Positions 37,504 to 63,094 of a stretch of DNA of 64,000 nt are shown piece by piece; the stretch's first letter is position 1, and every line of letters begins with the position of its first letter. The notes under the pieces were generated by a model that was not told the origin of the DNA, did not search any database, and saw nothing but the letters and a program-made list of their open reading frames with translations. Position numbers and translations under genes: made by a program. Origin of the DNA: Tubiluchus corallicola (Eukaryota; Priapulida; Priapulimorpha; Priapulimorphida; Tubiluchidae); NCBI GenBank assembly GCA_030141605.1, contig JAQGDQ010000023.1:862328-926327 (forward strand), in the 5' to 3' direction.

Positions 37504-39860
37504 TTTTTACAAATGATCCAGAACTTGTTTGTGATGTAAATGTTAACAAACCACTTGGAAAAGCTGACCATAACATCTTAAATTTTGACACATGTACAGA
37601 TGTAGTACAAACACTCAAGCTCATTTTTCTGGAAAGAATTTTTTTAAAGCAAACTACGGCTAATTGAATAACATATTCTTGCAATCAAACTAGGAGGAAG
37701 CAATAACATATAAGCCTAATCTAACAACAACAACTTTTTTTACCAATTTATGGAAACAATGAACCAGTTTACACCTGTAACTATGTCGAGTAAAACCGGT
37801 AAACTCAAACCAGCCTAGATGACAAAAGAAGCTCTTCAAGCTGTAAAATCCAAACGTGCTAAATGGAGATTATACTGTGCTAGGTGAGATCTTACTAGTT
37901 TCAACTTGTACGCTCGATAAAGAAATACTACCACTCAAACTATAAGAAAAGCAAAAAATTACGAAAAACGATTAGCAATGTCAATAAAATCGCATCCCAA
38001 ATGCTTCTGGGAGTATGTCAACAACAATTTAAAGAAACGTGACAAGGTCCCTACATTAAAGGAAAATGGAGAGGAAGTTGTTGATGATGCATGCACAGCT
38101 GAACTACTTAACGAACATTTCTTTAGTGTTTTCATGGAAGAAGATGATCGAGCTGCTGTACCAGTCACCCGTACGAACACACTGATCAACACTGTTTGCA
38201 TTACTGAAGAGAATGTATCCAAAGCCATAATTGATCTCAAAGCTGATTCCTCCATGGCACAAGATGGTATTTACCCATTTGCAAAAAAAAACAATTAGTA
38301 GCAAATTTAACAACACTATTAGTATTATTTTTAAAAGAAAGTCAATTAGTGAGAGCAAATTACCACAAGTATGGAAGAATTCAACTGAGTCTCCAATTTT
38401 TAAGAAAGAGTGAACTAAAAATTAACTATAGACCGATAAGCTTATATGTAAATGTAAATGTAAATTTACATCAATTATATGTAAATTTCTTAAGTAATTA
38501 GAAATACTATTTATGACCATCTAGGTATCAATGAGCCATATTACCCTCTCAATATGGATTCATAAAAGGAATTTCCTACATTTTAAACCTACTTGAGTCT
38601 TTAAATGACTGGCAAGAAGCTCTGGACAAAGGATTTTCTGTTGACGTAATATTTTACGATTTGCAGAAAGTTCCACACAGAAAGTTAAAACTTGCCACCC
38701 ATGGCATCACTGGCAATCTCTACCACTGGACAGAAGACTTTCTTAAAGACCGCTCACAATGCATTAGAATAAACTCTGAGAAACCTTCATGGAGACCCGT
38801 TAGGAGCCTAGTGCCACAGGGAAGTGTATTAGGGCCTATACCATTCCTTATGTTAATCAACGATGTATCAGACAATTTAAATTTATCACTGAAAATGCTT
38901 GCTGATGATACCAAAATCTACAGGATACTGAAGTCAAATATTGACTACCATAGATTCCAAAATGACCTCCACGGTTACAAACTTGGCAAATGCCTTTCAA
39001 CGTGGAAAAGTGTAAGGTTCTACATCTAGGGAAAGACAAGGTAACTCCTGGCTACGCAATGATGCAAATCAGTCAGTTCCAATAATAGCAGTAACAAAAC
39101 AGAAACTTGAGTGTTTTAATTTGACAAGTCTCTTACATTTGATGAATACATGGACGAAATGTCCAAACGAGCTAGGAAACGATTATGGATGATAAGGTGC
39201 TGTTTCACCTATATGGACATTGATATGGCAGCCATTTTATATAAAACATTCGTAAGACCAACATTAGACCACTGTGATGTAATTTGATGTCCATCCAAAC
39301 TTCAAGCAGTACATAAGGTAGAATCTATTCAACACAAGGTCACCAAATTAGTACCATCAATCAAAGATCTAACACATGTACAGAGAATGCAGAGACTGAA
39401 TTTGGCATCCATATGTTGCAGAAGAAAAAGAGGTGACCAAATCATGCTGCATATATACAACAACCTTACAAGAATTGATAGCAGAAAATATTTTTTAGTT
39501 AATCCATGTGGAGCAGGATACAAGATTACAAAGCCCAGATGTAGAAACAAGAACAGATTCATTTACAGAGTGATAAATGATTAGAATTCCCTCATTGATA
39601 TGGAGCACCACATCAGCAGATCAATATAAGAAGAAACTAGACATCTATTGATTTTGGAAGACCATCCAATGAGGTTCCACAATCTGTTCAAGCCTGAGTG
39701 GATTCTAAACGGTTTTAAAATCCAAGTCTTCTGCAACACCATTCCGTTTATCATAAACCAACATATCTGACCTGTGTGCCATACCACCACTGACATTGCT
39801 GCCTCACCATACCATGACAACTGCCGCTAGACAGCACGTCCACTTGAGAGACAACTTTAG
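37504..39860 (+). pseudogene. CR1/jockey-like LINE ORF2, decayed
   Basis: After the TTAA element it continues the endonuclease end (FTNDPELVCDV, then PLGKADHNIL), then KCFWEYVNNNLKK and the reverse transcriptase: LVPQGSVLGPIPFLMLINDV, LADDTKIYR and the thumb/tail (VRPTLDHCDV, KVESIQHKVTK, RRKRGDQIMLHIYNN). The longest intact piece is 122 codons; several frameshifts and stops break the rest. A 3' tail is not obvious. Confidence 0.85.
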
Positions 39861-42520: not shown

Positions 42521-44945
42521 TTCCCTTATTTGCCGCTGCAGTGGTTGAGGAACTAATGTATATAGGTCCGTTGGGATTAAGTGACTATTCAATTCTGTGC
42601 TTTCGCTTTATATGTCAAATCGCAATGGCCCATAACTCACAGGTGCATTGGAATTATAATACAGCTGACATTTCTGCCATTAGGGATGAAGTTAAATCTG
42701 CTTTTTGGAACTTATCAGATGGAGATATTGGTTAATAGGACAATTTTGTAATTCAGAAGAATACACTTAAGACAAACTTTATCAGGAAATCTTCTGCTAA
42801 TGGGAAATAAACATAAAGCACCTCTGAATGTACAATGTAGGCAGCTTTTGCAGAAGAAAAGATGTCTCTGGAAAAGGTATTGCGCAATTCTTTCTAATGA
42901 AAGTAGATTAGAATATAACAAAGCACGAAATCGGGAAGCAGAGAAGAGATTATGAAAAAAAATGCACATGATGCCAAAAATAATGCAAAGGCTCTGTGGA
43001 AATGCATTGTCTAAATATAAACTCCAGGAAGGGATTGGTGAACTCTTCAAAATGCCAAATGATAACAGCTCTGATTTAACTACTAGCAATGAGGAAAAAT
43101 CAGAAACAAAACATTGTCTGAATATTTTGGTAGTGTCTTTGTACAAGAGGATCTTGCCACACCTATCGCAAGTTTGCAACTAATGACGCCTGAAACACCT
43201 ATGGGAAATCTAGTTATCACTGAGGAAATGGTATTTGAGAAAATGAAGGGACTCAATATGACCAAATCAGAGGGATTGGATGGTATGCATCCACGTCTAT
43301 TACAAGAAATGGCTGATGAAATAAAAGGACCACTAGCAAAACTATTTAATTTGTCATTAACGCAAGGTCAAATTCTGTAAGCATGGAAAAATGCAAGAGT
43401 ATCAGCTATACATAAAAAAGGTAATAGAAAGATGGCAAGTAACTACCGATCGGTATCACTAACTAGCGTAGTCTGTAAAGTGATGGAAATGTTTGTCTGA
43501 GACCACATACTGGACTATTTGCCAAATAACAGACTTATATGTAACAACCAGTATGGTTTTTTGCCTGGGTGTTCTACTAGTTTACAGTTGTTTTCTTGGC
43601 TGTGGAGAAATGGGCTGAAGCACTAGATAATGGGGATGAAGTGGATACTATTTACATAGATTTTGAAAAGGCTTTTGACCGAGTTCCGCATTTCAGACTT
43701 CTTCGAAAACTCGAATCCTACTGTATCAATAAAGAAATTGTTACCCTTTATCAATAGAGAAATAGAGAAAACAGAAAGTAATGGTTCAAGAAAGTAGTTC
43801 AAGTTAGCAGCCAGTGCATAGTGGTTTACCACAGGGAAGTATCCTCGGCCCGGTGCTATTTTTCTGATATCCATCAATGAGCTGCCAACAAATATTGCCT
43901 CTAGTACACTGATGTTTGCAGATGACACTAAACTGTACAGGGTAATACAATCAGAAGAAGACAGGGAAGCTGTCCAGGAGGATCTCAACAACCAGGAAGG
44001 TAAAATGGAGTCAAGACTCTCTATTGAATTTCAACACTGAGAAATGTGTGTTGTAAAGAGAGATGGGAGAAAGTGAGTAAAGAGAGATGTGAATGAGATG
44101 ATGATGTGAGATGTGAGTGAGGTGTGTTATAAATGTTGTGCATGTGAGAAATGTAAAGCTATAAATATTACAAGTAGTAAAAAGACAATCCTGCTACTGA
44201 GCATAAGTTGATTTATGGGAGAGATTGCAAGCAGATTCCATGGGTGACATCCAAAAGGATGTGCGAGTAACATTTGACAGACTGCTAACTTTGAAGGGGC
44301 ATGTTTAAGAAAAAATCAGTACTGCCAAAGCAGTGATGGGAATAATACAGAGAAATTTTATCAATATGGATCATGATACCTTTGTTTGGTTATACAAGGC
44401 GCTGATGGGGCCACATCTTGAATTTTCTAGCTCGGTTTGGCATCCTGTTATGATTGGCTTAATTGATAGCATTGAACAAGTTCAGAGATACGCTACAAAA
44501 ACCTTGACCGACTTAAAAGGATTACCATATGAAGAGAGACTCAGGTAACCTAAACTACCTACACTGGCTTACAGATGGCTTAGAGGAGATATGATAGAAA
44601 TGTATAAAATCCTGCGCCAAAAATATGTCACTGCTGTTAGCCCCAAGTAACATCTGAGTGCAGAGGTTGCTAGAAGTTCAACAAGAGGACATCATCTGAA
44701 GCTATATAAGAGTAGAGCAAGTAAATATGTATGTCTTCACAGCTTTTCAAGTAGGATCTTTAACACCTAGATTAGTCTGACAAATGAAGTGGTATCTGCA
44801 CCCATTATAAATACATTAAATAATAATAAGGCTGGATAAGCATTGGGCTTCGAGAGATCTGGTCTACAATTATAAGGCCTCAGTTGAGGATTTGATGTCT
44901 GACAAATGTGCAAGATTTGGCTAGAAGTTTTTACTTTTCCAAAAA
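42521..44945 (+). pseudogene. LINE ORF2 (endonuclease end to C-terminus), decayed
   Basis: In order: GPLGLSDYSILCF (endonuclease SDH-like motif), KKRCLWKRY linker, LVITEEMVFEKMKGL and LDGMHPRLLQEMADEI, NYRSVSLTSVVCKVMEMF, YIDFEKAFDRVPHFRLL, ADDTKLYR, a purine-rich insert near 44050-44130, then HLEFSSSVWHPV and TRGHHLKLYKSRASKY. Many stops and frameshifts. Same broad CR1-like class as the LINE at 35-40 kb but clearly a different sequence. Confidence 0.85.
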
Positions 44946-45479: not shown

Positions 45480-47133
45480 ATATTAGAGAGGTTTATTTGT
45501 AAACTATTTATCAGCTTAACCTGTATCCTTCGACAGTAACTGTAACGGTTGTTATACATAGTTCTTTGGCAATGTTGCCTGCATACTGCCACATCCAGTA
45601 TAGAAAAGTCTAAAATATCTGATATTAAATGATAACTATTGCATGATAACCTAAATTGCACAATTTCATGTGCTAAAACACATTTAGTGTAATGCGTGGT
45701 AACCATTAATAGTCTATTAGTCACATGTTGTACAAGAATGAAGAAGAAAAAGAAGAAGTATTAAAACAAGAAGTATAGAAGAAGTGTTAAGGCTGTTGTC
45801 CCTAGTATAACTCCATGCTGAGTTTTGCAATCACTCTCCTAATTTGATCTGTTTCTCTTACATTCTCATGTGAATCTAATCTTAATTTTCATCATCAGTT
45901 CTCCTTTCACTATCATTTCATTACTCTTACTACCACCCTGGTATTTCATTCTCCTTGTTTATTTTAGTTCACACATTCTGCATTTTTTCTTTCCATTTTG
46001 CGTTTCTGCTTAGGCCCATACAAGTTCATCTCTCTGCCTGAGCCAAAATCTGAATATTTTGTGAAACTTTAATTGTTTTGGTTTGTTTGTTGCAGTAGTA
46101 GCCTATGTTTATAATCTTTATTGCTCTACTTTGTTCACTGCAGTAATATGTGCGTGGTGTTTTGAACTTTCAATGCAACATGGCCCCACATTTATCATGT
46201 ATGGTATGGGTCTATAATATGTCCTGTAAGTATGTGACATTGGGCTCTGTGCTTGAGCACTCTTAAGAGCAGCTTTGGAAATCGCATTTTCGGCACACTT
46301 TGGTAAAGATGAGTTAAAATACCTTTTGCTTATAAATAAATTTAAAACCATACTTATTAAAGTAGACCCATACATGCGTATGGTGAGTTTGACCATTCAG
46401 CTTCTTATCAGTATTTAGTTTATGGAAAGTGGCTTCAAAATGCTCTTAACATTTGTCTCCATCAGTTTCCAAATGCTGACAACTTTCTCAGAGTCCTGTT
46501 TTGCTGCTGATTTTTATACACTGTAGTCTTAGTTATTATTTAAAGTCGGAGTAGATTCAGATGGGTAATAAATCCAGTTATTTTCCGCCTAGTTCTTTAG
46601 CTTATTCTCACCAGTAATTTGTTTTTGCATAAACTCCAACTGCATTGCTCATCAAGTAGTGACCAATGAATGAAAAATTCCACAATTAAAACCAAAGAAA
46701 AAGAAAGAATAAACACAACGTTCCTAACTACCACTGTAGTTCTTTTTTAGGTGAACAAAAAAGTGGTAGCTTTACGTATTACAAGTGTTTTTTTCTTTTT
46801 TTCTTGTTTTTAATTGTGAGATTTTTATTTGTTGTTCCTTGTCATTAAGAATTAACCTGTGTGATCAGGTAGTTAACTAAACCCTCACTAGTAAATTAGT
46901 TGCAAGGGATGCAAAGTTGGAGCTATTTTTGCTTCTCACATGTCTGGCATTGGTAGTGCTGTAGCCCCTCACCTGAGTGGCCACTGCTCTTGTTTGGGAT
47001 AATTTGTATTAAAAATATTACAAATGCAAACTGTCAACTCTACTTAGGTATTCTGTTAGTTTGCTTTATTAAGTTTTCATTTTCCAGTGTGGACACATGT
47101 TGTTTGCCATGATTAACTTACTCCTCTTTACAG
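45480..47133. other. MVP upstream region, no gene seen
   Basis: Should contain the MVP promoter and a 5' non-coding exon, since the first coding exon opens with a splice acceptor. I could not place either. Confidence 0.4.
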
Positions 47134-47142
47134 ATATTGAAG

Positions 47143-47294
47143 ATGAGTAAGCAAGGACGTGCTGGAGGTGACCGGGATGACTCGGCAGTCTACCGTATTC
47201 CTCCACATCATTATCTTCATGTAATTGATCTAAACAGTAACATAACACGTGTCGAGTTGGGCCCGAAAACTTACATTCGCCAAGACAATGAAAG
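47143..47294 (+). CDS. MVP: MVP exon 1 (first coding)
   Basis: Exon begins at 47134 after CTTTACAG; ATG at 47143. Codes for MSKQGRAGG, then [15 protein letters not shown] and [11 protein letters not shown]. Donor AG|GTATAG, phase 2. Confidence 0.94.
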
Positions 47295-50200
47295 GTATAG
47301 CAACTTAGTAATTTGCTTATTGTCTGAACTTTCATTGTAAGCGATGCATGTAATGTATTCAATCCAGTCATGTAGAAAATTTATTTATGTATCATTTTTT
47401 TAGTAAGCAAGTGGGTTTATTAGATACAGGTTCTGGCTATTAATAAAAAGTATAGCCAGTTAATAGGATCAATTGTAGACTCTACATTTCTGCTAATTTA
47501 ACTGTTTATCCATAGAGTAATGTGAGCGTATACTAATTTTTCTATGTCATCCTTCTTGTTGAATTTTATTACATGTGTCTGCTGATTTGGGACATGAGAT
47601 ATACTGAGATAAGGCCCGTTGTCTAGTGTTTAAGTTACTGTGCTTACTCAGCAGTGTCTCTTGAATAGAACTCTACTAACTGTTGTACTACAATACATGT
47701 TACAATGTATATGACTATTATTATGAATATGACTGTATATTATGTATATGACTCAGGAATGTTGTTATGAATGACATTATTGACATGTCAATTGTGCATA
47801 TTGCATATAATTTTTCTGCTAAGGAGGTTATGTTTTCATCATCATTTATTGATTTGTTTATTAACAGAATTTTGTAAAAATACTAAACTCATTTCTAAAA
47901 AAATTTCTGGAGGGATTGGGCATGGGCCATGGAAGGACATTTTTAGTTTTGGTAATGGTCAATACAGTGAGATCATTAGATATTGTTATATAGTTATTGA
48001 GATGACGTCAGAACAACTAGCGACCTCTTTACCTAAGTATCTGTGTTATACTCTGCAAGCCTTGGCGGAGACAGTGGTCTACTAAGTGCCATTCTAGTTC
48101 GTATATGTAACTTGTCGTATGAGGAACGTGTGTCACTGAAATGTGCTTCCTTAATTTTGCAAAGCTACTGTAACACAATATTTATAAATTTTAAAATTTT
48201 GTGTAGGTGCCTGCTTTCCTCACTGAACAACTTTTAGGTAGATCTCATGATTGGTATGCATTTTGCAAGATTTATATAATATTTTAAAAATGTAAATACT
48301 CCATTCTTTAAATTACTTTTTAGAGTTTTACTGGGTCCGGAGCAGATGGTAGTCGTACCACCTCGTCATTACTGTGTCGTAGAAAATCCTGTTGTTATTG
48401 ACAAGGATGGAAAACCAGTGCTTGACAAATTCGGGCAAGCTAGATTACAGCATGCTGATCTGGAAGTACGTTTAGCCCGTGATCCATTTCCTCTTTATCC
48501 CGGGGAACGTTTGAAGCAGGTAATATATTACATTAAAGCTATTGTAATATTTTTTAATTGCTTTTAAAATTTCTTGTTCAATTTGGTTTCTTCAAGTCTG
48601 TTTTTAGTATATTTTGTACGTGTTGTATTGAACTGTAAATTCTTATGTACAATCAATCTTGAGTATCTCATCGTATCATGCAGTGGTGTAGGTTTCTGTC
48701 CTTTGCATATATAAATAAGGTAACACCTTTTTACATGTGTATTCAGTAAAATGCTAGCCATTTCTCTCGCCTAGTGGAAGAACTCTTGGTAGCAAGACCA
48801 AAAATGCCAACGATCATAATTGCAAACATTTATCAGTTTCAGCTGTGTTTTACTTTATGAAAATCAAGCTAAAGCAGTAGATAGCAAAAGTGTGCATTTA
48901 TTGTGCAAAAATGTGGACCTATGAAATTGAAAAATCATAGAAATAATATTCTTCTCATTTTCAAATCTTTTGTCACGTTTGTATGACCTATGTCATTTTT
49001 CATGTATCAAGACGAATTTGAATTGATTATTGTCTAAATTTGGATGAGTAGTTCTTGGTGTCATAAGAAAGATCGTATGGTCTCATCTGAATTGCCTATA
49101 ACATATATGATGATGTTATGAACGTTCACATTTGACTGGAAAAACTTTGCCTGTATAATAAGTTAATAATTTCTCTGTGTGTAATACATTCATTATCTCC
49201 TTCATTGTTAATCAGTTATTGTACTACAGGCTGTATATGGTAACTAGGTAATGCATAAATTAAACATTATGTTAACTTGAGTGGGCTTGTATATTAGAGT
49301 TGTGCATGCAGCTATGTTGCCAAGATACAGAATGTCAATATAGTCAGACTTGTGCTTTATGAGTGTATTGTATTTCATCTGTACAAAGTACAACATTTAT
49401 TGACCGTTAGGTAAAGTAGGAACTCTTTGGGTGGGGTGGTTGTTTCCTTACTGTTCAAACAAATAGCTTTGGTGTTGTGAACAAACTTATTGATAAAATG
49501 TTGATCATTTCATGTAAAACTTCCATTGACTTACTTTTTAACTCGCCATTGAAACCGACTTCTTGAAGAAGCTAGCTCCATTTAGAAATTTACCTTTTAC
49601 CTGGAAAAAGACCTTTAAAAATGTAATGTTCCATTGTGATTATAAGTTAAAGCTTTTAACCCCTGATGTTTAGTAACTTTTTTCTGTATAACTGTCCATC
49701 TTTCGAGATCGTACCATGGTGTGATGGTGACCATTGATGGTGACCAACAGTATGGTGACCGTTGACCTCAGTTGATCGGGTTGAAGAATCTTGATGTGAT
49801 TAGGTTTTTTTAACATATGTATGTCTGCCGTAAATTTGAAATTTTTTGCGGATAGAGAGCCCTGTTACAGTAGACTTGTGTTAAGTAATTTTTTGAAAGT
49901 GTTCATGGCTAACTCATATGACAGGAATTTAATGCTTATAGTGGGATCATTATACAACTCCTACATCACCTGTTATCCAACAAGCACAAATGAAGTTGTG
50001 ACTTCTACATGTAAGAATAGCTAAGGTAAAGTTTGATGTACAGACTAAGTGTTTTTCATAAACTGTGACAAGGCAGTAGTCAAAGTAGGGAAATGGATCA
50101 AAATATACATCCGTAAGACTTTTACAGATGTATACATATGTCTCTGCTGAGGTTTGTGGCATGCCAGATGGAAATTTGTAAAGAGACAAGTGAGACACCT

Positions 50201-53200
50201 CAACCTTGTGTAAAAGTTTATTTGAGCACAGATAATAAAAGCGAAAAAAGACTTGTGCAAAATAGCATTTAATGGCATTTTTGGTTATTGTGCTGCAAAT
50301 GCATGAATCTCTTAACAGTATACACACAAGTGTAAGTAAAAACACTGTACACATTCTAGCATTCACATGTTCATTTTATAGGTTCATCTGCATTACAATC
50401 ATCATAACTTGTCATAAATTGCAACTTTGTAATATTAACATATTTTAATTAAGTTGTGTTTAAAGTGCAGATTTCCTGTGACCTTCATAGTCATATTTTT
50501 AATTATTTATTGCTGATAACAGGTAGTTACACCCCTGACCGTAGTTACAGCTAACAAAGCTTTAAGACTACGTGCGGTATTGGATTTTGAAAGTGCTGAT
50601 GGGACAAAGAGAGTAGCTGGTGATGAATGGCTGTTTGAGGGACCTGGTAAGTTAAGTTCTCTGAAACATAAAAAATTGATTTCCTTTTTATTAAGCGTTT
50701 TTATTGATATTTATGCTGTTAACATCTCTAGTACACTAATAGGTAATATTAGTATAATAAGCATCATAATGTTAGTTCTGTTTTGCATGCCTGATGGTGT
50801 AGCTAAAAAATTTTGCCTGTCGAATATAAATGTTATTCATGAAACTATAAATTGTTTAATTAAATTATGGGTTCAATAACTGGTGCAATTTCGTGCAATA
50901 AAATTAATTTTTATGGATTAGTTGTTGGTATAGGTTTAGCATATTTGCAGGTACATATTATCCACGTAAAGAAGTTGTAGTGGAAGAAACTATTACTGCT
51001 GTTATTGTAAAAAATAATCAGGCCATAAGACTTCGAGCAAAGAAAGAAGCTAAGGACAGAGATGGAAACGATCGGGTTACTGGTAAATTGTTGTTGGTAG
51101 TTAAGTTTTCTAAGTTAGCTAACATTAACCTAAGTTTTCACTTTTTATTACATGTTTATTATTATTCTTAAATGGCAGACTTGATAAATTGACAAGTGAA
51201 TGATTTTTAAACTAACGATTTTCAATGCTAATAAGCTAACTTGACAACGTTATTAAATGTAGTTTTCATTTTCTGTAGGTGAGGAATGGCTGGTGAAGAA
51301 GACTGGAGCATACCTCCCTGGTGCACATGAAGAAGTAGTTGATATAGTCCAGGCATACATTCTCACAGAGAAGGTGATATGAAATCATTTAACTTAAAAT
51401 GGGTTGCCTTTTTTCTGATTTCAGTAGCTTTGCTAAACGTTCGTTTGAATTAGTGCCTCATTTGTAATCGATGACATGGTGAACATTACATATGTCAAAG
51501 TTCTGTTACGACAGTTTTTAATTTGCTACATAAAATCTTTTATAATCTTTTAAGATGGGTAACTATGTAGAATGGTTCTGCTTTATATGGGAACATTGAC
51601 AGGTTGTTTTTAATAACAATTAAGTTATTGTTAGTAAAAGAAGATACTGTAGCTGCTGTTAATACTGTGTATGTCAACAAGTCCACGTTCTCATGTGTTT
51701 TCGTTTCAAACTATAAAATAATTATGATGATTTATAATTCTGGATTTTCTTGTGCACCTCCAGGAATAGAAAGAAAAAGTTGAAAAATATTGGCACTTTA
51801 ACATCACACTGAAATGCGTTCAGTTCGAAACATAGATAAATTGTGAAGAAATTCTTTGATATTGAGAGAGTGGTATATTATTACAGAGAGCTCTGCATGT
51901 TCGAGCAGTCAGAACATTTACTGATGATTTTGGAATACTTCGCAAGAACGGTGAGGAGTGGCTGATTACATTCAATGACACCGAAACACACATTCCTCAC
52001 GTTTATGAAGCGGTACATGCACTTTCTATACAATTTAGAAATGATCAAGGCTGCCATTGTGGAAACTTCAACATTATTAACGTACTTGAACAGTCAATAG
52101 CCGCATAACATATGAAATTCTGAAAATGAATAATTTGTAATAAATGGCAGAGTTTGTGCTTTATTACTTTTATGCACCCCACATCATTTTTGCGATGGTG
52201 CAGCAAACATATCCTGTTTACTTCTTATTTATCAAATTATATTTTAAAGTATAAAATGATATGAAATTTGAAAAAACAGGAATAATTCCACATAAAGCTA
52301 TTTTTACATTATGATTTACCTTACTTCAGTAGAATCTATCTCCCCCTTTCTGACTTCCTCCAGAGATGAGAATTTTCCGCGGATATGCGGAATTCCGAGT
52401 TTTTGGAAGACCAGTAGTGTCATTTTTGTAAATCGCGTAAATTTGTTGAAAAAAATTTTCGGGGTTGGAACTCGTTTTCGTCGAAATTGTAATCAAAACT
52501 TTCAGTAGCATTTTTTCGAGGTATTTATTCAGCTTACCTTTTATCTCCTAGATGTTAAAATTGCTGAAAAATTTTGGCTAAAATAGGTCAAATAAAGCGT
52601 AGATATCGTTTATTTGTTAATCTGTACGCTTTGTAGCATGCCTTTTACAGCAATGCGGCATATCTTCATTGCTGACAAATGTGAAACTTTGAGGCCTCCA
52701 GACACAAACAACCGCCAAAGCGTAATTTGAATAAAACCAAGTTTAATTTTATAATTTATGAAATATAGGCATCAAAATATATACAAAATAAAATTTGTTA
52801 ATTTTTTTAAACTCCACAATCATATGTATCATGTATCCTTGATAGTTGGGTATTTTAAATTATGCATGAAACAAGGTAATTGATATTTTAAGTTCACTTA
52901 GAGGTTCTCTACGGTCACAAAATTGCAATTTGTTGCTGGCTCCAAAGGGGGCTTCGCCCCCTTGAATGCCCCCCTCAACCCCATTGGGGCCTAGGCGGCC
53001 CCCAAACCCCGGCCTGTTTCAGAGTTTTTTGCATTTTGTCATGCTCATCCCTGTTCCTCTCTTTCCCCTGCTCTCTGTCCTTTACTGTAGCATTATCCAG
53101 TCATCTGTAGATTAAATATAAAACAACTTAAGAGCACCCAGGTATGTACGGTTTATGGCGTAAAAAATTGCAGTTAGTGCTTTTGGTTGCACTGTTTCAA

Positions 53201-56200
53201 AGTGAAAACGCAAAATTCCCTCAAGATCTCCAGCTTATTAAAGTAAAAAAAAACTAACGAACTGTGGCAACTCTTTCAAGAATTACTTTTGAAAACTCTC
53301 ATCTTAGACGAAAAATGGCATCATCCGATTTTCGCTCATTATAGGCATTTGCTCTGCCCGGTGTTTCAATAATATTTTTTTGATTTATAGAGCCAATTCT
53401 ATAATCTAAGTAACCCACCCGGTACCTGTTATATGCTTGCAAGTTTACATGCGTGTCTAAAAGTCAACAAAATTCTGTACAATTAATGTACACTACTTAC
53501 ACATTTTACGGTATAATCCCGTGGATTAAAGCTATGTAACCAACGTAAACTTGATCATAATTGATCCAGTGACTAATTTTTACATAAACACAGTTAAATA
53601 CAATGGTAGAATAACGAACTTTTGAGTGAACTGTAGAAATTTCTCAATGCGTACCTTCATCACAGTTTACCTTCACAGCATTCACGCTGCCCAGCAGTCA
53701 CCAGCTTACTTCATTTTTTTCAAATATGCTGGCAGCGACTATCGTTTGGCGGAGATAAAAAATATTTAAATTTCTGTTACATTTATAAGCAGAGCATTCT
53801 ATGTGCTTATATTGTGTGGTGATTTCAATATTTTTAATTATATATTAAAATGCAATAAGTGTTGTTCGAGGGTTGGTTCTTCCTTTAAGGTTAGCCAATA
53901 AACAAACTTATGTGAACAGCAAAGGCAGATTAAATGTAAGTTAAAGACGTTCAGCTGGTGCATATCACAGATGCCACATTGTAATTGTGGAGTGGAATTC
54001 CAAACGGAAATAAATTTTTGGTCTCGTGGCCATGCTTCATCTGTATGATACAAGACGATATAAAAACTTGGCTGAAACAACGCAAATAAGCTAGCTGTAG
54101 TTTTAGCAGGGGTGCCCATTACATCTACTAGTCAATCACAAAGATAGTGTGGGTAGATCGCATGCACTTATTTTTCAAGAAAATAGCTACATTGTATACT
54201 CCACTGGTTGTTTTCGCTGGTTTCCGTGTCAGGTTCACTGCTAGGCTGGGAGAATCAGACTCGCTAAGGAAATTTTAATTAAAGTCCCTGTCAGACATGG
54301 TGAAATTTTGCAATGCTCACTTGGAACACAAAAAAGCGATGTAAAGCCACCACTGAAATGCCCAAATGTGCAAGAAATGTGAGAAGCAATCTGATTGGCT
54401 CGTATGAAGGCCAGCCAGCCAGTCTCGAGGCTTGTATTGTCAGACCAGCGGATTGGCTGGCCCAGTCTTCTTTTTGGTGCGCCAAGCAGCTGCTGTAAAA
54501 TTCAACCAAGCTAACCTGTAATTTATTTCTACTAAACTTAAGAAAGGGTATAAAAATTAGTCTGAGAGCTGGACCAAGAAAGTAGCCAAAAAATGTAGAG
54601 AGTTGTATTGTGCAATAAGGGTTCGTGCAGTTATGCAAGGTACAACCACTTATATCATACAAACATATTCATAAATAAATATATGTTTTGCATTTTTGTA
54701 GTAGGTAGATCATTTTGACTTGGTCATTTTATAAGTACCTCACAAGCTGAAAAAGTGTGGTCACCCCTGCATTATAGACACACATTTACAGTTGACGTGG
54801 AATCCAAATTTGTGAAAGTTTAATGTGCATTGTCTATCTCACAATGAGTAAATGTCAAAGTTTTGAATTACATAAATAAGGAGACTACATGACGAACTGT
54901 GTTCTGAATCTTGGCTATCAAACTGTTAAATGATGATGATTTTGCAGAAAATTTGTGCATTGTTAGGTGGCACCACCTAGTGGTAGAACTTATAAGGAGT
55001 AGAATGCTAGGTGATGAGGCAAGTTAGTTAGCATGAGCAGGTGTGTGTGAATGGTTAAACTGTTAGAATGTAGACATTGAATCAGACAGAAGCCACTAAA
55101 AGAGCCAAAAATGTATGTATGAATCTATCTATATAGATCTATTTTGGAATTTTGCTTGGGTTTAAAATATATGTACAATATGATATAATTACTTTGGAAA
55201 CCTGCAATGTTAAATTTCATTAGTTTTAATTACATTATTACAGATTGAATGTACCTTGCCAATTTATAATATCACACAGGAAGAAAACGTTAAATATCTG
55301 GAAGAAATTTGGCAATAAAAGTGACATTTTCTATGGATATTCAGCATTGAGGAGAGTCTTCTTTGGCAAAGTGGTACAATCCTATACAAACTGAATGGCT
55401 CTATAGAGTTATTCATGGGCGAGTAACACAATGACCTGCTTATTCTCTTTACCTCATTTATATTTAATGTGTATTAATGAGTCATTCACCTGTTTTAGGT
55501 TGTAGGTGAAGTTAATATAACAACATTAAGTAACAGGCAATACTGCGTTATCGTCGATCCTATTGGAAATGATGGCAAACCTCAGCTAGGCAAAAAACGA
55601 CTAGTGAAGGTATAAATACGTGTTAGTTGAGTTAAGATTTTGCTCAACACAATCATCACATATTATTTAAAAATTGTAGTTTACCATTACTTTACATTTC
55701 CATGTCTGACATTGCATTGAATTCACACCACATCGACCTCTTCGCCCTAATTTTATCTGCACATTTGTTGTTTGTTTGTTTGGTTGTTCATTTTTTAGTT
55801 TACTCATTCATTTGTTTATTATGAAATTATCTGTTTGTGTGTTTGTCTTATCATGTTTGTCTATTTATTTATTTGTTTATTTTATTCAATCTTTCACTTG
55901 TTTATTTAAAATATTCACTCATATTGTTAACATTCATTTTGGCTGACATGGTGCATGTGGCAATTACCAGTAATGTAATGATAAAGACATAAACAGACAC
56001 AACATGCATACCAGTTAAAACCAAAACTAAACTGTATAAACGTAGTTTATACCTTAAGAGGTAAAATAGAATTGACATTTCACTAAATTTATTACTTATT
56101 TACTTTTAGAAAATAAATGCCAGCATCCACTTAAGTATACACACGGGTCTAGTTATTCAAACACAGTGATCTGTTGTACCAACTGCACGCTTTCACCTTT

Positions 56201-59200
56201 GGTCTGTCACGAGCACGATTCTTACCTAATGAAAATTTAATGGATACAGACCATTACAAAAGTCTAAAATCACACTCGGTGAAAAGCAAACAACGATTTT
56301 TAATTTAAAACTTGTAGATTGTGCAGTACATTGTCAAATGACAGAAAATTATAGTTAGGCTATTTCTACACTCTACATTTTCTGACTCTTGCCTGTGCTT
56401 GGCAATAGGATAAACCTTTGCAGCAACACATGTTCAACACTGTAAACGAGCTTCTCAAAATAATTGTGGGGGAAAAGAAAGTTGATGAACATTACTCCAG
56501 CTTTATCTAAAGAGTTTCTCAAAAATTCGAAGTACTCACAAATTCAAATACTTGCAAATTAAATTCACTAATAGCAGATTCTAAAATTTTGAAGTTATCT
56601 AGTCTAAATATTGAAATGTTGAGTCTGTGAACAGTGCTCATGGATTGATAAATGTGGCACTGATTTCAGCTGCCTACTGTAGCCAGTGACCTGCCATGGA
56701 GCTAGTATTTACATACTTCCAAATGGCATAACATCTTAACATTAGAAACTGAAGAACAGATGTCAATATTATAACATAAAAATTGTGGCAGTTGCTCCTT
56801 AAACCTGAAAAAATTTGAAAACTTGACCAACAGACAAAAAATGCAATGACTATAAGTTATTTTTAAGTTTTACAATAATTGTTTGATTTTTTCACTATCA
56901 CAACAAAATGATGTTCATTATTAATCATCAAATATAAAAATACATTACTGGTACAGAATTTTTCTATTTAGGGAGAGAAATCATTTTTCTTGCGCCCCGG
57001 TGAGAAGCTGGAAGCTGGTATTCAAAATGTATTTATACTTGGTGAAAATGAAGGGCTGATCTTACGAGCAAATGAGTCATTCAGTGATGCAACTGCCGTA
57101 TGTCCAGTTATTGTATAATTTTAATAGCTTTTATAATTTATTATATTCAAGAGTTGTGAATCAACTATTTCAAAATTTTACTCGGTAATATTTTATATAC
57201 TGTAAGGTATCCACAAAATGTTGTTGTAACATAACTATTTTTAAGCAAAAAGCTTCTGTTTCTGAATTTGTAAATTTACCGCTTTTAAAATAAATTAGAT
57301 GTTTACTAATTATGCTTAGTTTCTGCTTGATGTCTAGTAGCTTTTGCTAGACAATTATACAATTATATAAGAATTTACACACTTCACCTGACATTTTTTT
57401 TGTACATGTGTAACTTTTAAGACTGAGTAGTTTAAGGACTTTTCCTGGTTAGGGTAAAACTCGCCAGCCAGGTGACAGGTGGATGATCAGAGGACCAATA
57501 GAGTATGTGCCACCAGTTGAGGTTGAAGTCGTGGCCAGACGAACTGCAATTCCACTTGATGAGAATGAAGGAATATATGTGCGTGACATTAAAAGTGGAA
57601 AGGTATCTGAAATGTTGAACATGGTTATTAATTTTTTGTTGGTTAATTAATCTAAGACTTTATTAACTACAACTTTATTAACTAGAAATGTCTTTAATGT
57701 TTTACTACTCCCATAGTTTATTCAATGCACATTGTTACTGATAAAGTCAGTGCTATACGGCCATTCAGTAAACATTACTATCAATATTTCTACAGTACAG
57801 TAATCGCTTCATGTCTTCCTGTTTAGCGATGTTTCGTTTTAATGATGCTGATCATTTGACACCTTTTTCACTTAACAATGCACGTTTCACTTTAACGACT
57901 ATTTTTGTACTTTGCTCAAGGCAAATTTTGATTTTGTCAACGACATTTTCACCTAATTTGATGCATTAAAACTGTACATTATTCTGTTCTAAAAATGCAC
58001 TAGTAACGTAAACAGTGTAATTATTATATACATTTTTGCTTCTGGGCTAACTACTAAATGCTACACATTTAAATCAAGTGAGACCTATCAGCAAACTTTA
58101 TGCATGCAACCTGTTGTTATAGCAACTAGACTAAGTATCTAGATAAAATTCCCAAGCTCGCCCAGGACTTGGCTTTGACTTTGCAGTGTTTATTATTTAA
58201 CCGTTGCCTAGGCTTAAACTTTAACGAAAGAGAGACCGCTATGGCTAGGTAATGGCAAGTAAGATATATAGGTGGTTTCAGGCAAGCAGAAAGAAATTAA
58301 TCAGTAGAAATATGAATAAAGCTCTTAAAATGTTTAAGTATATTATTTAACCAGTATTGATTTTTGCCTCTGGAACGTATCTCAATTCTTTTACATTACT
58401 TTCTATGGAAGTCTTGGCTTCATTTAATGACGTTTCACTTAATGTCGCCTTTTGTTGAATGGCATTAGCATCGTTAAGCGAGAACTTACTGTAATATACT
58501 TATCTTAATGAAAAGTTTTCCAATTAAAGTGAAACTAGACTATTCTCATGCTGGAGATGTTTTAAAAGCGGACTTCTTTAAAAGTATTTTACAATGTAAT
58601 ACTTCCTTTTTCTTTGGAGCCACATTTTTTATGCAAAATATAAAAAAATCAGGTGGGTGGTATTATGAAAGAGCAGATTGTGAGACGTTGTTGACCTCCC
58701 ACAATATCTAATAAAACTTGTATGACGACAGTCGAACAGACTATAGTCACTGATTGGATCTCAAGCATATCTCCATTTTCTCAGATTAAACGTTAATTAA
58801 ACGAATATAAGATTTTGGCAGCGAGATTTAACTAATTTTCACAAACTTTGATTAAAATCTAATTCTTTTAGCTTTTTTAATTTATAAATATCTGCTGCTA
58901 TTTTCAAACTCCTTTCCTGCAATCATTAGCTTGAGTTTTGAAATTTGTCTTATTTTTTCAAAAATATTACACCCATTAAGTAAACATTTGCCTAATATTT
59001 TAACAAAAGCATTTAAATGTACATGTTCATTTAGGTACGTGCTGTCATAGGTCATACATACATGCTTAATGAAGATGAGTGCTTGTGGCATAAGTTACTT
59101 CCTCAAGCTATAGAAAATATGCTCTCTGATCGTGCTCCCTATAGTTCAGAAGCTCGTTTACCTTTTACATATTCTCAGAGCATCGCTGAAGAGAGAACGA

Positions 59201-62200
59201 TAACACAATGTACTAATATTATTGACATGCATTACGACAGTGTTCAGCAGCAGGTGAGGGCATACCAGATCCATAAAAGGACAGACAGCAACCCAGAATG
59301 GAACGTGCAAAAAGCTGAAACGCGCGATAAAAAACTTTTGTTAAATGTTTCTATCAGTAATTGTTTAGTGCATTCAAACACTTGCGTACATCCTCACCCA
59401 AGGCAGCATGTTTGTTTAATCTGCTTTGTACATATAACTTCATAACATGTTCCATTCTTTTTCTGTCAAGGTTCCACATATTTTTTTGTATGACTATCTT
59501 GTAGGTTAGAGCAGTTAATGGAGAAACATACATGTTGTCTCAAGACGAGGAGCTTTGGGAGAAATCAGTAAGTCTAATGTTTGGAAAGCATGATTACTTA
59601 ACCCTTGGCTACTGGTGCCGTTTCATGTACTTGTCAGTACCATGCATTACTACATATACAAAGAAGTGGTGTGCCTTATCTATTGGAAGTTACAAGGATA
59701 TCTTACTGTTATTTAGTAAAAGTTAGTTATTAAGTAAAATTATCAGGTACCTGTAGTTTTATTTAATGTAAATGGTGCAATTAATCAATGAACGTGCACA
59801 TAAATTGTGTACATCTGTTATTTTGAAATTCTAATTCTGAAAAATTGATTCAGTAACAGTGGCCAGATACCTTCACAATTTTAATGAAGCTTTGGAAAAT
59901 AAGAACCTAATTTTTTCAGCATAATCCAGTTTGCTGTCATCAACAGAATATGTACAGCCTAATAAGATTATTAATAAAATGCTTTAGGTGTATTTTGAAA
60001 GTGGTTTTGCAAGTCAAAATTTCACATGATTTAATCAGCTAACAGGCTGTATAATAGCTGTGATGGTATGTTATACATTAACTACAATCGCTATTTAATT
60101 ATATTTTAGTCATCTGTTTCAGTTGTTTTGCAGCCTCTTATTTAACAATTTATTTAATTTATTTGCAATTTTGAACATCAAGGTCAAGATCAAAATACGT
60201 ATAGCATTTTAGCTCAAGTTATAATAAATTTTTATTTTGGCCTATGCATTCTGTTGATGATGGGTAGTTGCCAGGGTTATGATAAAACATTTAAGTTTTG
60301 CATTTTCAAAACTTTATTAACATATTGGAGCTGCTAAGAAAAGTGGCTTGGTAATGTTGGATGGTCTCAGAATCAAATTATGTAATTTAGATAAAACAGT
60401 TGGATGTGGCTGCTTTGCAGCAGTGATGGTGAGGGTTAATAGTTGTTTTTCAAAAGTTTCCGGTTGTAGTATCGGTGTAACTCGCATGGAATTTTAGGTT
60501 AGACTGTCTGTAAAAATTTCTGAATTAGTGCACTATTATTAAAGCTGTGATATATTTAATTGTCACTAACATTGCTTTTCACACTAACTATACTTCTGAA
60601 CAGCATTCGTAGATTGCTTATTTTATTCCGTTCTTAGAACAAGCTTTTGAGATAAAAATTTCATAACTAAAATTGTGCTGATTCTCTTTTAAGCATATTA
60701 AATACTTGCTTGTATTAAAATATGACTTGACTAAAGAATGAATTTGAATTGCTGCCTCCTACAGCTGTGGTCAATATTCTCAGTACTCCTTCTAATTTCT
60801 GTTTAACTGCAGTCTTTGAAATATCTGCAACATTTTTTATAGATGTTACCAGCAGTAGAAGATTTGCTAACACAGGAACGTGATCCATATGCAGATCGCA
60901 GCAACCGTCAGGGAGGGTTACAGCGTCAAACTCGTGATAAAACTCGTGTTGTTACTTTCAGAGTTCCACACAATGCAGCTGTACAAATATATGATTATAA
61001 GAACAAAAAAGCAAGGTAGCTAGATTAATCTCTTGGTCTGATTTGTTATATAATAATAATAATAAGAGAGAGAGAGAGAGAGCAGGAGAGTGAGAGAGGA
61101 AGAGAGAGCAAGAAAGAGAGATGTGTAAGGTGGTGTGTAGGTGGTATGGTGTGGTGCAGTGCGGTGTGGTGCGATGAGGTGGAGTGGTATGGTGTGGTGT
61201 GATGAGGTGGAGTGGTGTGGTGTGGGTTGTGTGTTGATTTGTGCACAAAATTCTTTTTGTGGGGTTTGGCTAGTACTTTTATTAATGTTATAAATGTTTT
61301 AAAAACAGCTGACTTTACTTAATTTCTTGCAGAAAAGTTTCTAGGGTAAGTGTCCTATTATGCTTATCGAATGTCAAACCCTTTCACAAAAACCATTGAG
61401 CATGTATGTGATAGAAACAATTTGTTTTGTCCTTTCTACACATATCTCAATTTTATAATAAAAATCGTTACTAATGGTGTGCTAGAAAGTAAGGTTAATT
61501 ATATTTTTATATAAAACTATGACTCAACACGAAACAAAATAGTCCTATTAATGCACTATGTCTCCTTTTGTTTCATTGTAAAAATTTTGATTAATTAAAG
61601 TAACACTGATTCCACTAGCGTTCGGAGGGCAAATAGGTTATTAGGTTTCCCGTATTGCATGATTTACCTTGGGTCACTCTGCATTCATGCAAATGTTGGT
61701 CATATATGACTCAAAATAATGACTTCTGTGTGTTTTGAGGTGAAAACCAATGCAGCATGCTGTTCCATGATTCCTCTACAGAAAATTTACAATCTGGATC
61801 GCCTCAATAAGATTAACAGATTTGAAACTGACTTTATTGGGGAAAAAATTAAATCGGCTCTTTGTGCTGTTTTGCTCGGGCCAATATTGTTCAATTGTGG
61901 TCGTAAAACACACACAGTAACTACTAGGTTATTTTTCTTACCTTAGAATAATGGGATATGTAAACTGTTTTATTATTTTCTAGATGTGTGCATGCCACAA
62001 TTTTTTCTGATTATTTTCGAGAAAAAGTATAAAAGAAATTGCTTTACTGTCAATTGCATTGAATATTTGCATCGTTGTATTAATTTTTGTGGTTAGTATT
62101 ATAATAGCATAACCACATTTCTAGAGTTTTTAACAATTTTTTTGGAGACGCAATTAACTTGGAGAATGTTGTTTGCTAATTAGAGCAAAATGATGTAAAC

Positions 62201-63094
62201 GTTGAAATGCTACTGGCTAAGAAAGAATTCAATAGTTAGTTGACACCTTAACATTTGTACTGCGAGTGACTTTTGGATTTTTCTTGTGCTGCCTGCAAGT
62301 GACGCTGAACCACACACAAGGTCAGCGAGTTATGCTCTGCAAACAACCACTTTACAAGGAAGAATGAGTTTTAGTGAGTGTCATAGTAATAATAACACCT
62401 AAAACTTGCAGAGTTGTATTCGGACCAGAACAAGTAATGTTGAACCCAGATGAGCAATTCACACAACTGAGTTTATCAGGTGGTAAACCGAAAAAACCCA
62501 ATGTGATCAAAGCATTATGCTTGCTACTGGGACCCGATTTTTTCACCGACATAGTAACCGTGGAAACAGCTGACCATGCCCGCTTGCAGCTTCAGCTGGC
62601 ATACAACTGGTAACTGCTTTAAATTTGGTTTTATTGTGTGTGTATCCTGTAACACTTCTAAGACGTCCAAATGTGTGTTATTTTACATGCCAGGGTAATT
62701 TTATTTGTTACCAACAACAATTTACTTCTCATTTATATTGGATTTTAAACATGTAATTGTACACTATTCCAAATGATTACTTTTTAACATTCAACAGAGT
62801 AATCGTGTTTTGTCTTACCCTAAAAAAATTTGCTATTGAAATATACGATAATTTTTACGATGTGAGTACACTAAGCACTGTATCGTCCCACATCTCCATC
62901 TACCTTACCGTTAGTATAAAAATGATTCATCACTGATAAAGGTAATTTTCTGCAGGCATTTTGATCTGGGAAATAAGGAGTCTGATTCCTATAAGCTTTT
63001 TAGCGTTGCTGATTTTGTGGGTGATGCTTGCAAGGCTATTGCATCTCGTATCAGGGGCTCCGTAGCTGCTGTGCCTTTTGATGATTTCCATAAG
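47143..63094 (+). CDS. MVP: major vault protein, N-terminal 668 residues (3' end beyond window)
   Basis: MVP is the main wall protein of the cytoplasmic vault particle. Fourteen coding exons: 47143-47294, 48324-48519, 50523-50646, 50951-51082, 51279-51373, 51887-52012, 55499-55609, 56972-57097, 57453-57602, 59035-59253, 59505-59567, 60843-61015, 62412-62609, 62956-63094; all GT-AG and phase consistent, open throughout. The N-terminal structural repeats are clear ([58 protein letters not shown]), then the shoulder ([52 protein letters not shown]). ATG 47143 is chosen because the next motif lies a human-like distance downstream; an acceptor at 47133 implies a 5' non-coding exon. Unusual point: exons 10 and 11 both carry the VRAV-TYML segment, making the protein about 70 residues longer than the human one up to this point. 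Confidence 0.97.
48324..48519 (+). CDS. MVP: MVP exon 2
   Basis: Sixty-five codons. It reads [17 protein letters not shown], a linker with DKDGKP, then [19 protein letters not shown]. Donor CAG|GTAATA, phase 0. Confidence 0.96.
48520..50522. other. MVP intron 2, nothing identified
   Basis: Two kilobases of AT-rich sequence with a short GGTGACCATTGATGGTGACC repeat near 49725-49765. No repeats with clear ends. Confidence 0.4.
50523..50646 (+). CDS. MVP: MVP exon 3
   Basis: Reads [20 protein letters not shown] and ends [11 protein letters not shown] with the Gly codon split (G|GT). Acceptor GATAACAG. Confidence 0.96.
50951..51082 (+). CDS. MVP: MVP exon 4
   Basis: Reads [35 protein letters not shown], then DRVTG with the Gly split. 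One vault repeat unit. Confidence 0.96.
51279..51373 (+). CDS. MVP: MVP exon 5
   Basis: Reads [20 protein letters not shown] and ends in AYILTEK. Donor AAG|GTGATA, phase 0. Confidence 0.96.
51887..52012 (+). CDS. MVP: MVP exon 6
   Basis: Forty-two codons: [16 protein letters not shown], then NGEEWLITF and THIPHVYEA. Acceptor ATTACAG, donor GCG|GTACAT. Confidence 0.95.
52361..53053. mobile_element. 693-bp hAT-like element with 6-bp duplication
   Basis: Ends CAGAGATGAGAA and, inverted, CAGGGATGAGCA. TTCCTC lies directly outside both ends (52355-52360 and 53054-53059). The right part holds a GC-rich palindromic block (GGGGGCTTCGCCCCC) unlike anything else in the window. No long frame. In MVP intron 6. 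Confidence 0.7.
54107..54769. mobile_element. 663-bp hAT-like element
   Basis: Ends CAGGGGTGCCCA and, inverted, CAGGGGTGACCA. Outer octamers AGTTTTAG and CATTATAG agree at only five of eight bases, so the duplication is decayed or misjudged. Inside are two ATTGGCT words and GGGTATAAAAATT, a promoter-like arrangement without an attached gene. In MVP intron 6. Confidence 0.6.
55499..55609 (+). CDS. MVP: MVP exon 7
   Basis: Thirty-seven codons: [20 protein letters not shown], then [17 protein letters not shown]. It is preceded by the 3.5-kb intron that holds two hAT-like elements. Confidence 0.95.
55765..55915. repeat. TTTG/TTTA-rich simple sequence
   Basis: Impure repeats of TTTG, TTTA and GTTTGTTTG in MVP intron 7. 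Confidence 0.7.
56972..57097 (+). CDS. MVP: MVP exon 8
   Basis: Forty-two codons: [20 protein letters not shown], then [11 protein letters not shown]. Donor GCC|GTATGT. Confidence 0.95.
57453..57602 (+). CDS. MVP: MVP exon 9
   Basis: Fifty codons: [20 protein letters not shown], then [19 protein letters not shown]. It ends phase 0 exactly where VRAV follows in other MVPs, so either exon 10 or exon 11 could follow in frame. Confidence 0.95.
57798..58491. mobile_element. pogo/Tigger-like element, copy B
   Basis: TA at 57796-57797 and 58492-58493. Right end inverted: CAGTAAGTTCTCGCTTAACG; left end CAGTAATCGCTTCATGTC, more diverged. Internal blocks shared with copy A include AACCTGTTG-TATA, GTAGAAATATGAATAAA and TTACTTTCTATGGAAGTC. 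In MVP intron 9. Confidence 0.75.
59035..59253 (+). CDS. MVP: MVP exon 10: first copy of the VRAV-TYML segment
   Basis: A 219-bp exon in phase 0 at both ends (73 codons). It reads [20 protein letters not shown], then [12 protein letters not shown], and goes on for about 40 residues ([17 protein letters not shown]) with no counterpart I know in MVP. Its first 40 residues parallel exons 11 plus 12. Because its length is divisible by three it could be skipped without changing frame. Confidence 0.8.
59505..59567 (+). CDS. MVP: MVP exon 11: second copy of the VRAV-TYML segment
   Basis: A 63-bp, phase 0 exon reading [21 protein letters not shown], with good sites (TTGTAG acceptor, TCA|GTAAGT donor). 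Joined to exon 12 (MLPAVEDLL) it gives the usual MVP order. Confidence 0.88.
59568..60842. other. MVP intron 11, nothing identified
   Basis: AT-rich intron between the short exon 11 and exon 12, without delimited repeats. Confidence 0.4.
60843..61015 (+). CDS. MVP: MVP exon 12
   Basis: Reads [20 protein letters not shown], a basic stretch, then [19 protein letters not shown]. Donor AG|GTAGCT, phase 2. Confidence 0.95.
61060..61220. repeat. GA then GTGTGGT-type simple repeats
   Basis: (GA)n from about 61066 to 61125, then GGTGTGGTGTGATGAGGTGG-like units to about 61220. It gives His/Thr- and Leu/Ser-rich false frames on the minus strand. In MVP intron 12. Confidence 0.9.
62412..62609 (+). CDS. 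MVP: MVP exon 13: shoulder domain
   Basis: Reads [40 protein letters not shown], then RLQLQLAYN. Core of the shoulder domain, nearly invariant in animals. Donor TG|GTAACT. Confidence 0.97.
62956..63094 (+). CDS. MVP: MVP exon 14: shoulder domain
   Basis: Reads [38 protein letters not shown], then FDDFHK. The next exon, normally starting NSARII, is not in the remaining 900 bp. Confidence 0.96.

Follow-up and report, generated by a model that had tools for sequence, protein, structure and literature searches.

Does a single MVP gene encode vault wall chains of two lengths? This question is raised by the MVP gene of the priapulid Tubiluchus corallicola, found on the forward strand of a stretch of 64,000 nucleotides (assembly GCA_030141605.1, contig JAQGDQ010000023.1, positions 862,328 to 926,327), which is called here the window and whose numbering is used for all positions. 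Vaults are among the largest particles of the eukaryotic cell and their wall chain is strongly conserved, their function being described as still open in the available text of PMC12547018 and PMC13347060. An initial annotation, made from the letters of the window, had noticed in this gene two consecutive exons that begin with the same VRAV-TYML segment. The reading that we favour, with a probability of roughly one half, is that the first of them, exon 10, is a real coding exon derived from an old intragenic duplication and most likely used as a cassette exon.

By Pfam models and by homology to solved MVP chains, the gene is MVP. The vault repeats PF01505, PF17795 and PF17796 and the shoulder PF11978 are all detected above their cut-offs. 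Residues 14-595 of the product spliced without exon 10 match residues 5-593 of the PDB chain 9z4w (best E-value 2.2e-260; this search covered the first 595 residues, and exons 15-18 complete the chain). The gene is intact, with 18 coding exons (14 within the window) and 17 of 17 introns bounded by GT-AG. Its spliced product comprises 863 residues without exon 10, 936 residues with exon 10 and 915 residues when exon 10 replaces exon 11, each form being open from the ATG to a single terminal stop. The phase 0 at both ends of exon 10, and the choice between a long chain and one of standard length that follows from it, are thus as the initial annotation had described them.

Exon 10 as a copy of exons 11 and 12

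Between positions 59035 and 59567, exons 10 and 11 both encode the segment VRAV..TYML..DE.LW.K, and the coordinates, phases and motifs initially reported for them were recovered. The alignment of exon 10 with the joined exons 11 and 12 reaches a local score of 97 (the maximum over 2000 shuffles is 48), and exon 10 alone is similar to human MVP 398-429 (phmmer, E = 2.5e-5) and to the Pfam model Vault_4 (26.8 bits, cut-off 22.9). Exon 10 had also been said to repeat the LP stretch found at the start of exon 12. It does, but the similarity extends to about residue 40 and runs unbroken across the exon 11/12 junction; exon 10 is therefore the counterpart of both exons fused, without their intron. 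This intron may have entered the ordinary copy later or have been lost from exon 10, or the copy may have been made from a spliced form. The neighbouring exons 10 and 11 are significantly homologous and have the same orientation, as duplicated exons do. The partial internal duplication within the MVP gene that was suspected at the outset is supported by the homology of exon 10 to exons 11 and 12. In the window and the next 20 kb, TBLASTN detected two copies of the segment and no third copy of note, and BLASTN with positions 58500-59504 as query returned the self-match only.

By its splice sites, open frame, codons and saturated synonymous change with a conserved protein, exon 10 looks coding. 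Its acceptor (...catttag, 5.47 bits) and its donor (CAG/GTGAGG, 7.12 bits) are within the ranges observed over the 17 introns of the gene (0.35-9.54 bits for acceptors and 0.59-10.28 bits for donors, the weakest donor, at 0.59 bits, being that of exon 11). The frame used is free of stops, which are present in the other two frames. The codon score of the whole exon is higher than that of 392 of 392 stop-free intron windows of 73 codons, and the score of its tail (the last 42 codons) is higher than that of 99.2% of 1864 stop-free intron windows of 42 codons (these windows overlap; training of the model used the MVP gene minus exon 10). With a score based on synonymous choice only, the tail is less distinct, its score being reached by 6.8% of intron windows. 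In the core of 31 codons, the proportion of synonymous differences (pS) is 0.74, near saturation, and the proportion of non-synonymous differences (pN) is 0.32; pN equals or exceeds pS in 0.1% of 2000 bootstraps. The protein similarity has thus outlasted the synonymous similarity. These proportions indicate an old copy, and constraint on one of the two copies at the least and probably on both.

The initial annotation had counted about 40 additional residues at the end of exon 10. There are 42, and shuffling reveals no significant similarity to the parts of MVP tested, namely the rest of exon 12 (p = 0.33 local, 0.08 global), exon 9 (0.85 local, 0.44 global) and human MVP (0.80 local, 0.42 global). 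In a fixed register, the anchored score of the tail against the start of the last repeat has a p-value of 0.11, and a shift of six residues scores higher. At the beginning of the tail, a weak echo of exon 12 covers 16 residues. An origin of the tail by divergence from the first part of the last repeat, or of the last but one, was considered and rejected, the shuffling and register scores being not significant.

The insertion point is located between the residues equivalent to human 397 and 398. It falls in the last but one repeat (Vault_4), and the last repeat (Vault_3) still precedes the shoulder; the earlier placement of the insert near the repeat/shoulder border was therefore inexact, the Pfam order leaving one more repeat between them. 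We call these two repeats R8 and R9; the labels are our own and follow the order of the Pfam models, the vault papers counting nine repeats. In the human vault, the accessible part of PMC13347060 mentions an unresolved flexible loop (429-449) and the lateral contacts Asp383:Arg474, Arg461:Glu492 and Lys476:Glu485 of R8-R9. Since R8-R9 carries these contacts, an insert at this place should matter for packing. An architecture of nine repeats with a single VRAV-TYML copy is true of the chain without exon 10 and false of the chain with it.

In a tree of the core (24 rows, 31 columns), exon 10 groups with the eukaryotic MVP rows with a support of 99/97, on a branch about four times as long as that of the ordinary copy (0.77 vs 0.19). 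Compared with the ordinary copy, exon 10 shares fewer identities with all 22 outside rows, although against rat it obtains a slightly higher BLOSUM score.

Optional inclusion of exon 10 and the alternatives

According to the favoured reading, the region now contained in exons 11 and 12 (the second part of R8 and what follows) would have been duplicated long ago within the MVP gene, and in the resulting exon 10 the R8 part would have been retained, the remainder having been lost or replaced. Skipping of exon 10 (9-11-12) would give the standard wall chain, and its inclusion (9-10-11-12) would add 73 residues. In the 936-residue chain, R8 could be completed by the copy in exon 10, the tail would continue from the position of the loop and the exon 11 copy would come next, so that the wall would gain a partial or divergent extra repeat in some subunits. 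Alternative splicing of exon 10 is plausible from its sequence: equal end phases, an open frame and splice sites, as in cassette exons, are all present. Moreover, a slow-evolving, complete, standard-length ordinary copy accompanied by a faster exon 10 is what is expected of an optional cassette beside a constrained copy. What is observed is the structure of the gene, the homology, the frame, the coding character of exon 10 and the single copy in the relatives available for comparison; we infer the splicing-in of exon 10, its optional use and its effect on the particle. The further proposal that one gene would provide two lengths of wall chain, exon 10 adding a tenth divergent repeat, and that vaults would be taller or of mixed length in a proportion set by splicing, is very doubtful. 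Switching of the splicing would offer a natural handle on the size of vaults. From a natural insertion of part of a repeat, one would learn if the 39-fold shell can accommodate a longer chain in its wall. The interest of the duplicated exon depends on RNA evidence.

Several observations weigh against the favoured reading. The tail has no significant match, and it ranks in the lowest 7% by codon score among the coding windows of the gene itself. The contrast between pS and pN is partly due to constraint on exon 11. Exon 10 is known here from genomic DNA alone, in one assembly. AlphaFold2, applied to exon 10 together with bacterial segments (13 of the 19), produced two helices instead of strands (mean pLDDT 54.9, pTM 0.21), a model too poor to use. 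The tree rests on 31 columns, with two of its 18 inner branches well supported, and exon 10 is flagged in it both for the length of its row and for a deviating composition. Exon 10 is placed beside the mammals and not beside the second copy of the same gene, but this placement is unsupported (84/62), so that the tree neither dates the duplication nor assigns it to a lineage. Finally, the comparison set contains few animals, and no animal relatives alongside this assembly.

Inclusion of exon 10 in all transcripts (9-10-11-12) is unlikely, although its splice sites are of ordinary strength for this gene. All chains would then have 936 residues, with a tenth divergent repeat whose first two strands would come from the tail and the third from exon 11. 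The dimensions agree with this: the exon is about one repeat period long, with 73 residues from VRAV arginine to VRAV arginine, compared with 77 in the ordinary copy from the VRAV arginine to its equivalent in the last repeat. Four residues from the beginning of the last repeat (N, Y, D and R) recur in the tail in that register, and the length of the tail would suit one more repeat, but the register match is not significant, as given above, and since another register scores better we do not claim the tail as an extra repeat. With exon 10 as BLAST query, the alignments to four of 19 bacterial MVPs continue into the tail, as far as residues 54-66, at 26-33% identity. However, constraint is stronger on the ordinary copy than on exon 10, and an insert in every chain would part Asp383 from Arg474, which form one of the human R8-R9 contacts in the portion of PMC13347060 cited above.

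We consider it quite improbable that exon 10 is a leftover of the duplication, no longer spliced in or included by rare splicing error. Its long branch, a tail unrelated to the parts of MVP compared, the low rank of the tail codon score among coding windows and the knowledge of the exon from genomic DNA alone would all suit a relic. Nevertheless, the open frame, the ordinary splice sites and the coding-like codons extend across 219 bp despite saturated synonymous sites, and a neutral relic of such age should have lost its frame, sites or codons, which disfavours this explanation.

Exons 10 and 11 might also be mutually alternative (9-10-12 or 9-11-12), the 915-residue product taking the end of R8 from exon 10 and having, ahead of the last repeat, a lengthened flexible loop; the chances of this are slim. 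The splicing 9-10-12 is in frame and open, the two exons share their opening motif and their entry phase, and exon 11, short (63 bp) and with the weakest donor of the gene, could be skipped. The tail starts exactly at the loop that is unresolved in human vaults, where extra residues should disturb least (PMC13347060, accessible part). On the other hand, 219 and 63 bp are unlike sizes, when mutually exclusive exons are expected to have similar lengths and products, and exon 12 would add a second version of the LPQAIENML stretch that exon 10 already contains. A substitution of exon 10 for both exons 11 and 12 is impossible and was rejected, exon 13 being entered at phase 2.

The gene within the window and the assembly

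The coordinates of the MVP features are collected below.

Coding exons of the MVP gene and parts of exon 10, in window coordinates
Feature	Position	Strand	Remarks
MVP gene, coding exons 1-14	47143..63094	+	exons 15-18 past the window end, same contig
Exons 1-5	47143-47294, 48324-48519, 50523-50646, 50951-51082, 51279-51373	+	
Exons 6-8	51887-52012, 55499-55609, 56972-57097	+	
Exon 9	57453..57602	+	first part of the repeat receiving exon 10; ends at phase 0
Exon 10	59035..59253	+	extra exon; 219 bp, 73 residues, phase 0/0
Exon 10 core	59035..59127	+	31 codons; homology with human MVP 398-428 and with joined exons 11 and 12
Exon 10 tail	59128..59253	+	42 codons; begins at the position of the human flexible loop 429-449
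Exon 11	59505..59567	+	ordinary VRAV-TYML segment; 63 bp, 21 residues, phase 0/0
Exon 12	60843..61015	+	LPAVEDLL, loop, start of the last repeat; phase 0 in, phase 2 out
Exons 13, 14	62412-62609, 62956-63094	+	

In the assembly (343.5 Mb, 2344 contigs), PF01505 matches the MVP locus alone, on three contigs (C1787, C2138 and C2264; these counts are lower bounds). For each of the other two contigs, two stretches of 10 kb were compared with the window and are 100% identical to it, and no polymorphism between the MVP contigs was found in these 20 kb per contig. The total sizes of C1787 and C2264 are 14 bases apart. The threefold presence of the MVP region is most likely due to a redundant assembly and, the redundant contigs being identical, it brings no independent support for the gene structure.

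A pyrimidine-rich stretch (47118-47142) ending with ACAG is located 9 bases upstream of the MVP start codon and is perhaps the end of an intron in the 5' untranslated region or a trans-splice acceptor. An Rfam search of the window returned nothing at gathering scores, so that no vault RNA gene stands beside MVP at this threshold. Downstream of MVP, on the same strand and about 15 kb past the window end, an open frame of 236 residues contains a PTB/PID domain (PF00640, 21.5 bits, cut-off 20.9; L010, joined coordinate 78842). Elsewhere in the window, a reverse-transcriptase-like frame is present at 37921-39026 (PF00078 at 38535-39026, 28.9 bits, just below the cut-off of 29.6), and a stretch at about 42700-44000 is similar to it in appearance, by eye only. 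A tandem array at 19122-20132 comprises about 28 copies of a unit of 36 bp; this length being a multiple of three, the array reads as long repetitive open frames.

Comparison with known vault proteins

The single copy of the segment in other MVPs, which the initial annotation had stated for human, fish and Dictyostelium, was observed throughout the compared sequences that cover the segment, the latter two lying outside this comparison. The scan of bacterial and archaeal genomes yielded 20 loci with MVP relatives (L015-L034), mostly from cyanobacteria and Thiotrichaceae. With the exon 11/12 product as query, the segment is present once in 19 of them (E < 1e-10 in each, 35-54% identity); two loci have a second stretch no better than chance (E = 3.1 and 5.8), and the human query gave one at E = 0.15. 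The locus L033 starts past the segment, L029 starts shortly before it, and the frame of L032 is broken after it. In L032, a cyanobacterial MVP, the open frame ends at 614 residues and the MVP match continues in the locus, which is a frame break or a sequencing error. Among viral contigs no MVP relative was confirmed, and plasmids gave no match. Each of the six full-length MVP sequences of the PDB has one stretch matched by exon 10. The published lengths, as given in the parts of the sources available, are 847 residues in sea urchin, 861 in rat and 859, 867 and 872 in salmon louse; those of sea urchin and louse leave no room for an insert of 73 residues.

The mammalian MVPs (rat and human PDB chains; PMC13347060, accessible part) agree with this gene, within the part searched, in how repeats and shoulder are ordered, and the rat chain is nearly equal in length to the product without exon 10 (861 vs 863 residues). 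In contrast, they contain a single VRAV-TYML segment (human 398-428), whereas the present gene contains two. The same difference separates this gene from the bacterial MVPs, which have the homologous region in common with it. More than one wall chain also exists where MVP has paralogs: the available text of PMC12547018, PMC11219742 and PMC550661 reports three in trypanosomes, three in salmon louse and two in Dictyostelium, and one shell common to the three paralogs of T. brucei. These are separate genes, unlike the single exon of one gene considered here.

Among the matches listed in the open-access literature (titles and beginnings of abstracts), no MVP with a duplicated segment was described. 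As far as shown by this literature and by our comparison set, with its few animals, the duplicated segment is new as an MVP variant. Tandem exon duplication with alternative splicing is a general mechanism, and the adjacent homologous exons of equal phase seen in this gene are typical of it. The MVP gene of T. corallicola differs from this scheme in that exon 10 corresponds to exons 11 and 12 fused, followed by an unrelated tail, and in that the two copies are of unequal length.

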